Virus record (IMG/VR): IMGVR_UViG_3300037635_003336
Coordinates: 1 to 27,935 of that record
Direction: 5' to 3' (one strand)
Length of the DNA stretch: 27,935 bases
DNA from: a virus
Shown here: positions 25,486 to 27,935 of the stretch, in pieces
Position numbering within the stretch: position 1 is the first letter of the stretch
Layout: every line of letters starts with the position of its first letter
Program-made: the position numbers and the translations under genes
Notes under the pieces: model-generated
What the model was told of the DNA's origin: nothing
Databases searched by the model: none
Seen by the model: only the letters and a program-made list of their open reading frames with translations

Positions 25486-27048
25486 TTAAAAGCCATTAAC
25501 GGGTTCTTCAACACGGACCGGCCCTTTGCGTTTGTTTTGAGTGTACCCGACCGTTGTGTTTAGTAAGCCATGCTCGATGCCTTCTGCTACATACCTAGCA
25601 GCATCGGCAGCGTGAGAAGTGAAGTCATGCACCGGTACAGTGCCTAGTATGCCAGCAGCATCGTTCTTTTTAGCCCTGTACTGCTGTAGCATCTTGAGGC
25701 CATCCTCCATGTTAGGGCGATAGAAGTAAGACTTGTGCAACAAACTTCTCAAGTTGTTAATACCACGCCACACATCCCTAGTCTTAGGGCACACCTTGAT
25801 GTTGTTGCCGCCACAATCACGCAACTCCATGACGTAGTTCTTGGTACCAGTCTTGTCCATGTACGCAGCATCATGCGGCAGGATGTGACCGTACACTTCG
25901 TAACCCGACATGGCAAGCTCAGACACATACTCCCTAGTCTGCTTCTGACTACCCTGGGTGAACCATAGCCACTTAAGCGTAACACCATCCCACTGCACTA
26001 GCCATATAGCTGTGTAGTCTCGGAAACCCAAATCCCATACCGCCCATATTGGCACTTCCTTACTGGCTGGCAGATCGTTCCGGTAGTGACCCTTTCTTCT
26101 AACAATTTCTAATATGTCAGCGTATATGGCACCATCGACAGGGGCAGCCATTGCCTCTTCTGGTGTAGATGGAAACTCTCGCCCCATAAACAAGCCAAGA
26201 AGGTCGCTTTGCTTCTGCCACCATATCTTCTGGGGAACAGAAAACTTTCTGCCTAATCGCTTCTCTAGTTCCGCAAAGTAATCTATTGTGCTTTGAGTAA
26301 GCAGCGACTCATTGCCCACCATCCGATAGCTTGAGTCATCGTACCAAGGATAGAACAGAAACTTAAAGTCCATGTCCGTCATGTGCTCATCCGTAGTGTT
26401 CATCGCCTGCACTACCTGATTGTAGAAGTGCCCAGCTTGTCCACCCTCATAGGTAGACTCAATAAAGACTATGGCCCCCTGACCAGCGGTAGGCAAAGCA
26501 CCGGTAAGGATTTCCTCAGACCTAATGGGATCTTTGGCAGCAACCTTGCCCCACTCTGATATGTGCAACACTTGACTTGTGCCACCCCTAATCTTAACCT
26601 TAGACCTAATCTTCCATACGGGACTAAACACCAACTCGTTTAAGTTACTATTAACCACATCAACCGTAGCCTTCAAAGAATCATCTAGCTGGTTAAAAGG
26701 CTGGATAACCTTCTCCCTTAACAGATCCTTTGCTGCCTCGTCATTGTGAGACTGGATGTTGAACGTGCTGTTCTCGTGAGTTAGCACATAGTCTAAGCCA
26801 ATAATGGCAATAAGGGTTGACATGCCAAGCTGCCTAGCCTTAAGTATAAGCACACGCTTATGTCCTTCCAAGAACACCTCATTAAGCACGTCGCACTGGG
26901 CATCGTTAGGAACAAACTGAACCTCTACACCTTCCTTGGTTATGCAAGTGTATAGGTTGCTGATTCGCCACACTGGGTTAGAGAACACATCCTCGCTTAT
27001 TGGCCGAGCAATGATTTCCCTAACTCTTTCTATCCCGTCCCTATTCAT
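25486..27048 (-). CDS. terminase large subunit (DNA-packaging ATPase/nuclease)
   Basis: This 520-aa protein shows both activities of large terminases. The ATPase part has Walker A at residues 70-78 (KARQLGMST), Walker B with catalytic Glu at 160-165 (VLHISE) and the coupling motif near 193-202 (IVFIESTYEG). EFPSTPEEAM (291-300) is a typical spacer. The RNaseH-like nuclease has Asp339 in AVWDLGFRD, Asp393 in LPHDAA and Asp482 in SHAADAARY. It pumps DNA into the prohead through the portal and cuts it. The start overlaps the HExxH gene stop as ATGA. All motifs are intact; confidence is high. Confidence 0.95.
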   Translation of the reverse strand: MNRDGIERVREIIARPISEDVFSNPVWRISNLYTCITKEGVEVQFVPNDAQCDVLNEVFLEGHKRVLILKARQLGMSTLIAIIGLDYVLTHENSTFNIQSHNDEAAKDLLREKVIQPFNQLDDSLKATVDVVNSNLNELVFSPVWKIRSKVKIRGGTSQVLHISEWGKVAAKDPIRSEEILTGALPTAGQGAIVFIESTYEGGQAGHFYNQVVQAMNTTDEHMTDMDFKFLFYPWYDDSSYRMVGNESLLTQSTIDYFAELEKRLGRKFSVPQKIWWQKQSDLLGLFMGREFPSTPEEAMAAPVDGAIYADILEIVRRKGHYRNDLPASKEVPIWAVWDLGFRDYTAIWLVQWDGVTLKWLWFTQGSQKQTREYVSELAMSGYEVYGHILPHDAAYMDKTGTKNYVMELRDCGGNNIKVCPKTRDVWRGINNLRSLLHKSYFYRPNMEDGLKMLQQYRAKKNDAAGILGTVPVHDFTSHAADAARYVAEGIEHGLLNTTVGYTQNKRKGPVRVEEPVNGF

Positions 27049-27410
27049 CTAGTCTTGCTTTTCGTAATCTCCCTTATCAAGTAGTCCATCAAATAAGCCC
27101 CAGCCTCTTGTCCCTCTAGTCCCAAGTATTCCACGGCCCCAACCACAGCGTGGTATGACTCATGGGCATAGGTGTCGACCGTAGACCATTTCAATGCTTC
27201 CTTAACAAATATGCCTTGCACTATTCCCAGGTCAAGCCTAAAGCCAGCAGTGTTCTCGCAAGTTTTTAAATTTCCAACCTGCTCCTCTATTTCCTTTACA
27301 GTAGCCCCCTCTTTGACCATAGCATCAACGAACCCCCCATAGTCTTTACTGCCACCCCATATTATAAACGAACAGGGGTAGACATCGGGCTTTAGCACAA
27401 GCTTAATCAT
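27045..27410 (-). CDS. putative HExxH metallopeptidase-like phage protein (121 aa)
   Basis: A zinc-binding HExxH motif is visible at residues 83-87 (HESYH, in TYAHESYHAVVGAVEYLG). A helix with QEAGAYLMDYLIREI (101-115) follows and could supply a third ligand, Glu102. From memory, small proteins with H-E-x-x-H followed by 'E..AY...Y' occur near terminase genes in other phages and are annotated only as putative peptidases. The N-terminal half (FIIWGGSKDYGGF) is unfamiliar. There is no signal peptide. It lies between a 63-aa unknown protein and TerL in one coupled unit (8-nt and 4-nt overlaps). Its substrate is unknown; host protein cleavage or scaffold processing are guesses. Confidence 0.6.
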   Translation of the reverse strand: MIKLVLKPDVYPCSFIIWGGSKDYGGFVDAMVKEGATVKEIEEQVGNLKTCENTAGFRLDLGIVQGIFVKEALKWSTVDTYAHESYHAVVGAVEYLGLEGQEAGAYLMDYLIREITKSKTR

Positions 27411-27594
27411 TAACCTTACACCAATCTAGCTTGTCCCACGCCTCATACCGAGCAGGGCCATACAACTCTCGCATCTCGTCCTCTATCAAGCTCTCCCACA
27501 ACTCCTGTGACATAACTCGACGACCAGTCCTCGGGTCTAACCCACCCTCCATACTCATTAAACGCTCAAGCAACACATACTTGTCATCCTTCAT
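27403..27594 (-). CDS. 63-aa unknown protein, first gene of the structural arm
   Basis: The frame is open to 27645, but an exact promoter (27605-27633) lies inside that extension, so the first usable ATG is at 27594 (MKDDKYVLLERLMSM). The predicted transcription start near 27598 leaves a leader of only three or four bases, making this a leaderless mRNA. ATGs at 27558 and 27552 would leave longer leaders of about 40 nt but have no good ribosome site. The protein is acidic and rich in Trp/Tyr (ELWESLIEDEMRELYGPARYEAWDKLDW), with helical character; the family is not recognised. It overlaps the HExxH gene by 8 nt. Confidence 0.55.
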   Translation of the reverse strand: MKDDKYVLLERLMSMEGGLDPRTGRRVMSQELWESLIEDEMRELYGPARYEAWDKLDWCKVND

Positions 27595-27604
27595 AACGCC
27601 GCAC

Positions 27605-27633
27605 ATTATATCACAGTAATTCAACCCTGTCAA
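27605..27633 (-). promoter_or_regulatory. sigma70 promoter P4 for the structural arm (TTGACA-17-TATAAT)
   Basis: On the minus strand TTGACA (27633-27628) and TATAAT (27610-27605) are exact, with a 17-nt spacer, followed by GTGCGGCG. Predicted start is near 27598. The spacer and upstream side carry the direct repeat described separately, so P4 is probably regulated. It is divergent to P5 with 39 bp between the two -35 boxes. Confidence 0.88.
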
Positions 27634-27647
27634 GAAATAATTCAACC
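27617..27647. repeat. 10-bp direct repeat TAATTCAACC at 21-bp spacing (candidate operator)
   Basis: TAATTCAACC is found at 27617-27626, within the P4 spacer, and at 27638-27647, just upstream of P4's -35. The start-to-start distance of 21 bp equals two helical turns, so a dimeric regulator could bind both on one DNA face. The second copy overlaps a dyad TCAAC-CTACA-GTTGA at 27642-27656. Confidence 0.55.
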
Positions 27648-27656
27648 TACAGTTGA
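27642..27656. promoter_or_regulatory. dyad TCAAC-5-GTTGA between divergent promoters
   Basis: A perfect 5-bp inverted repeat with a 5-bp centre lies between the -35 boxes of P4 and P5. It overlaps the second TAATTCAACC copy. Its size and place fit a repressor or activator half-site pair; no regulator gene is visible in the window. Confidence 0.4.
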
Positions 27657-27672
27657 TAATAACACTTTAGTC

Positions 27673-27701
27673 TTGACAACTGACCCTACATACTATATAA
27701 T
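27673..27701 (+). promoter_or_regulatory. sigma70 promoter P5 facing right (TTGACA-17-TATAAT)
   Basis: TTGACA (27673-27678) and TATAAT (27696-27701) are exact with a 17-nt spacer on the plus strand. Predicted start is near 27708. It would drive rightward genes beyond the window, presumably the early or replication arm whose end is at bases 3-1761 if the genome is circular or circularly permuted. Confidence 0.85.
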
Positions 27702-27897
27702 ACGTAAGTGCAAGCGAAGCGAGACACGTAACGGATTATCATCGGAACGGAGTGTAGCCTGCGGAACGAGTACCGGACAATACGATTAGTCTACGACAGC
27801 ATACGTGGTCATAAGCGTGGTCATACACAGAACATATGTAGCAACACATGTGAACATGACTATTTGTAAACCGTTGAGTGTGTGATTGATAGGTACC
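27702..27897 (+). other. about 190-nt untranslated leader downstream of P5
   Basis: No ORF of useful length is present: ATGs at 27836, 27848 and 27856 are followed by stops within 0 to 9 codons. The stretch contains short repeats (GCGGAACGAG- and CGGAACGGAG-like), an exact 10-bp tandem repeat at 27804-27825 and the 8-bp palindrome CACATGTG (27845-27852). It may be a regulatory leader or encode a small RNA, but no terminator is recognisable. Confidence 0.4.
27804..27825. repeat. tandem repeat CGTGGTCATA x2 (12-bp period)
   Basis: CGTGGTCATA occurs at 27804-27813 and 27816-27825, separated by AG. It lies about 100 nt downstream of P5, in the untranslated leader. It is a possible protein-binding site or replication-origin iteron, with only two copies. 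Confidence 0.45.
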
Positions 27898-27935
27898 ATG
27901 CCACGTTGCGACAACTCAAGTTGCCCCCCCACCCC
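27898..27935 (+). CDS. possible start of a rightward gene (3' cut by window edge)
   Basis: An ATG at 27898 opens a frame to the window end (MPRCDNSSC...). The AGGTACC just before it gives a poor ribosome site, and the C-rich end makes the translation low-complexity (Pro/Thr). It would be the first gene after P5. Evidence is weak: only 12 codons are visible. Confidence 0.2.
   Translation, partial: MPRCDNSSCPPT

Follow-up and report, generated by a model that had tools for sequence, protein, structure and literature searches.

The divergent promoter pair and its surroundings

The phage DNA analysed here (the window; 27,935 nucleotides, positions 1-27,935 of the uncultivated phage record IMGVR_UViG_3300037635_003336 of IMG/VR) carries two promoters, P4 and P5, that lie back to back with 39 bp between their -35 boxes, as described in the original prediction (Table 1). 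Both are exact 12/12 matches to the sigma-70 consensus with 17-bp spacers. P4 is directed into the terminase and portal (packaging, head) arm and P5 into the opposite, early arm. P4 contains a TG before its -10, and P5 is preceded by TTAGTC, which is conserved in relatives and reads TTATTC in G007. Five 12/12 promoters are observed in the window compared to 0.01 expected in shuffles, and ten related records contain 3-7 exact promoters each, with 0 matches for the reversed control pattern.

The first gene downstream of P4 codes for a protein of 63 aa, followed by a gene for 121 aa and the terminase large subunit. The ATG of the first gene is located 11 nt after the P4 -10 (27592-27605 in the window) and this offset is the same in G001-G006 and G008, so that the P4 mRNA is expected to have little or no leader. 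Similarity of portal and terminase to those of cultured phages is distant, with 33% identity for the terminase. The Pelagibacter phages HTVC028P and HTVC010P, from the HTVC010P-like marine podoviruses, are among the closest cultured portal matches, a likeness that concerns the portal at 24-27% identity only. A search of bacterial genomes for the terminase gave no match and thus no pointer to a host. The record is probably incomplete, with the early arm cut at both ends.

Table 1. Coordinates of promoters, repeats, genes and leader elements. Positions refer to the window unless a contig is named.
Feature	Position	Strand	Description
P4	27605..27633	-	TTGACA (27633-27628), 17-bp spacer, TATAAT (27610-27605); 12/12 consensus
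P5	27673..27701	+	TTGACA-17-TATAAT; 12/12 consensus; divergent from P4
P1-P3	11324-11352, 21005-21033, 24637-24665		12/12 promoters of the structural arm
Repeat copy 1	27638..27647	+	TAATTCAACC; 4 bp upstream of P4 -35
Repeat copy 2	27617..27626	+	TAATTCAACC (GGTTGAATTA on the strand of P4); inside P4 spacer
Dyad TCAAC-N5-GTTGA	27642..27656 (arms 27642-27646, 27652-27656)	.	Read from sequence; overlaps copy 1
First P4-operon gene	27403..27594	-	63 aa, function not assigned; conserved in L002-L012; no Pfam match
Second P4-operon gene	27045..27410	-	121 aa; phrog_1365 (function not assigned)
Terminase large subunit	25486..27048	-	PHROG terminase match, 1.3e-24
P5 leader start, type A	27702..27935	+	Cut by window end; aligns with leaders of G001-G004
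P5 leader, type B	L012:3290-3667, L009:40-400, L010:140-500		~350 nt
~45-nt leader element	27858..27902	+	GACTATT...GATAGGTACCATGCC, containing GATAGGTACCAT; sole part common to types A and B

A scan of viral contigs with the window terminase yielded 15 loci, seven of which contain both promoters (G001-G007); G001 and G002 are close kin of the window. In G008, P4 is present and the record ends inside P5. A search for extra relatives by DNA pattern found no further copies of P4. Exact end overlaps of 119 bp in G004 (38.4 kb) and 91 bp in G007 (41.8 kb) suggest that these two genomes are complete. The longest ORF in their called early arms has ~446 aa. A single-subunit RNA polymerase would be larger, which argues against one there by size alone, not by homology.

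The equivalent of P5 is a 12/12 match in all seven relatives. For P4 this holds in G001-G006 and G008, and the G007 promoter matches in 11 of 12 positions (TTGACT). Two opposed consensus promoters in one intergenic region, a divergent sigma-70 promoter pair, are thus kept in seven relatives. The gap between P4 and P5 is 10 bp shorter in G003 and G004 than in the window. Helical phasing of this gap, with 29, 39 and 60 bp in steps of ~10.5 bp, was considered and rejected, as the gap of 77 bp in G007 breaks the series.

Conservation of repeat and dyad

The original prediction described an exact repeat of TAATTCAACC at 21-bp distance, one copy inside the P4 spacer and the other upstream of the -35, and a TCAAC/GTTGA dyad overlapping the upstream copy. 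Both are found in the window. The two copies bracket the P4 -35 box on the same helix face, two helical turns apart, and GGTTGAATTA is found nowhere else in the window. Among dinucleotide shuffles of the 97-bp region, 22 of 3000 (0.7%) contain a repeat of at least 10 bases; across these phage genomes, repeats this long occur in 1.3% of windows of 97 bp. Taken by itself the repeat therefore appears only moderately unusual, and it is the comparison with relatives that adds conviction. The dyad is too short to stand alone.

In G001, G002 and G008, both copies are identical to those of the window. Both copies in G003 and G004 have GTTAAGTT in place of GTTGAATT, with their positions relative to P4 and their 21-bp distance unchanged. 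This exchange amounts to two substitutions, G to A and A to G, which are identical in the two copies. The probability of such a matched double change is ~0.009 under independent change, a post hoc value for a single divergence event, and drift seems an unlikely cause of it. Of all offsets tested from 12 to 31 bp, 21 bp scores best in both sequence versions, and the register around the -35 is the same. Three more distant relatives, G005, G006 and G007, lack the repeat. Constant register and concerted change, the signs expected of an operator, are consequently observed in two lineages and absent in three other records.

The original prediction made conservation in relatives with the same promoter pair its own test. 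The repeat is kept at 21 bp in two versions but missing in G005-G007, and the dyad is confined to the closest kin of the window and absent in G003 and G004. Both absences count in part against the prediction.

The other promoters of the structural arm

A compact early/late switch had been proposed from the layout of the region. If such a switch acted genome-wide, the same site would be expected at the other structural promoters. All three, P1-P3, lack it in every genome, and the repeat was found neither at other perfect promoters nor elsewhere in the genomes. When the register of P4 is applied to P1-P3, only 1-7 of 12 positions match, compared to 8-10 of 12 at P4. P1-P3 share a different motif, a T-rich tract before the -35 whose last two bases are AC (in a few cases GC), and most have an ATT-N7-AAT pattern in the spacer. 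Because these three promoters lack the repeat and carry a different motif, we do not find a general early/late switch. In the sequences compared, the repeat is confined to the terminase promoter and does not mark all late promoters.

Promoters with the T-rich/AC tract and, mostly, ATT-N7-AAT form a second promoter class, whose features are absent from P4 and P5.

A putative operator at P4

The reading that we favour, and consider just about probable, is that the repeat represents an operator restricted to this lineage, at which a repressor of P4, and hence of the terminase operon, would bind. The host sigma-70 RNA polymerase would use the region as a bidirectional control hub. A repressor bound to both direct repeats would cover P4 from about -50 to -17 and block the polymerase, which would delay or limit expression of the leaderless terminase operon. 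P5, ~25 bp beyond the upstream repeat, would stay free. Protein binding at the repeat, its repressive effect and its timing are what we infer here. A site over the -35 and the spacer favours repression. A repressor also appears likelier than an activator since P4, with its 12/12 match and its TG, should not depend on an activator. The predicted regulator that acts on P4 while P5 fires fits these observations as a regulator of P4 only, with the repeat over the -35 and spacer of P4 and with P5 clear; its extension to a general switch does not hold.

The protein that reads the repeat would be peculiar to this group of phages or to its host. Among the early ORFs examined, we found no candidate reader with a distribution matching that of the repeat. 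The small HTH protein that the original prediction suggested looking for has one possible counterpart, an early ORF with weak similarity to sigma-70 region 4/HTH (L047:8001-8480) that does not track the repeat. ORFs at the same position occur in G004, G005, G007 and G009; the place is fixed and the neighbours are conserved, and the sequences are unrelated between phages. The copy in G005 matches HTH_40 with 3.6e-5 and Sigma70_r4 with 0.0016, both below the curated cut-offs. The fold of the early ORF, predicted without an alignment, is of low confidence (pLDDT 56), and a structure search with it gave no significant match. As G003 and G004 have the same repeat and unrelated ORFs at this place, this ORF is probably not the reader. 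The 63-aa product of P4 was examined as a possible autorepressor; it gave no family match, has two helices and gave no significant fold match.

The P5 leader

P5 reads the early arm, as predicted, but runs into a long leader and not straight into a protein gene. In relatives that show the first early ORF, ~370-500 nt lie between it and P5, with no evident conserved protein. The leaders fall into two non-homologous types, A in the window and G001-G004 and B in G005-G007. Type A gave no fold better than shuffles, and it may contain a GTG-started ORF with a length of 43-49 codons. In type B, the first 200 nt of G005 and G007 are 86% identical compared to 77% for their terminase genes. The predicted fold of type B has 92 pairs, six of which are changed on both sides. 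This number of compensatory pairs, derived from three sequences of which two are nearly identical, is reached in 1 of 500 shuffles and in none of the slid controls. Taken singly, the sequences also fold better than their shuffles (z about -2.3). Type B is thus predicted to be a structured RNA that is better conserved than terL, which for the window would be extrapolation only. In a search of Rfam, the leader had no match at gathering level, and the strongest of the weak matches are implausible. Cultured phages yielded no homologues of it, and the type B core has no exact match in bacterial genomes.

The ~45-nt element common to both types is located near the 3' part of the leader (blastn of type A against G006, E=8e-8; against G007, E=5e-4), and it is possible that it represents a packaging site or an RNA element. 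Further matches in the contigs L044 and L046 were discarded, as their surroundings do not match and they look like chance. A C-rich hairpin follows the element in most relatives, for which we considered a function as terminator or as packaging site.

In the early operon of G003 (L021:13154-13927), five type II hammerhead sequences lie in tandem between small early genes; all of them are in sense to P5, and three exceed the Rfam threshold. One hammerhead is found in G001 at oriented coordinate 1609. Tandem type II hammerheads have been described in bacteria and phages, some in phage intergenic regions (Perreault et al. 2011, PMC3088659). The hammerheads found here are likewise type II and tandem and do not represent a new kind, given that tandem, phage-associated ones are already known from this work; they differ in that five sense copies lie in the early operon of one relative, and not in the window.

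These findings allow a reading in which the P5 side is the main job of the region, with P5 reserved for a long RNA and the early protein genes read from promoters of their own further on. P4 and P5 would then be no early/late pair, which is compatible with an operator at P4. Speaking for it are the length of the leader, the structure of type B together with its conservation above that of terL and, in G003, a further 12/12 promoter immediately ahead of the first early ORF. However, a clear second promoter exists in some relatives only, a terminator after the leader is at best putative, and type A has a possible short ORF and no stable predicted fold. We regard this reading as tentative and on the unlikely side. 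With the same reservation it may be envisaged that P5 mainly makes a new class of phage RNA, that the type B block was replaced by an unrelated version in the lineage of the window and that the hammerheads cut the early operon.

Alternatives to an operator and comparison with phage lambda

The repeat could also be the remnant of a short duplication, or a chance match retained by descent. P4 would then be an unregulated strong promoter, with timing set by gene order and DNA entry. The frequency of repeats of this length in these genomes, the three relatives that lack the repeat and the perfect promoters P1-P3 that do without it are all in line with such an origin. It is the matched double substitution at constant spacing in the copies of G003 and G004 that argues against it, and we consider this explanation rather unlikely.

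An activator site of the lambda CII type that boosts P4 late is quite improbable: the half-sites are direct, not inverted, and flank the -35 hexamer on one face as in lambda, but CII half-sites are spaced by one helical turn and belong to a promoter with poor -35 and -10, whereas here they lie two turns (21 bp) apart at a 12/12 promoter whose TG before the -10 should make an activator needless, and neither a CII homologue nor any match to an activator-like family was found among the early proteins scanned.

The putative P4 operator also resembles the lambda PRM/PR region with OR, in that back-to-back sigma-70 promoters part two arms, operator-like repeats lie over one promoter and the first mRNA is nearly leaderless, as is that of cI from PRM. 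In contrast to the inverted-repeat operators of OR, the repeats here are direct, ~10 bp long and spaced at 21 bp. Only one promoter is covered, and no repressor gene was found adjoining.

Implications

Of the whole region, the P5 leader attracts the most interest. If it is a functional RNA, it would be a structured phage RNA without a match in Rfam that is linked to ribozyme-processed early mRNAs. If P5 mainly serves to make this RNA, the hub would strike a balance between an early regulatory RNA and the packaging operon. With the putative operator at P4, an uncultivated phage group without an evident RNA polymerase of its own gains a concrete and testable control point, for which one candidate site exists in two natural sequence versions.
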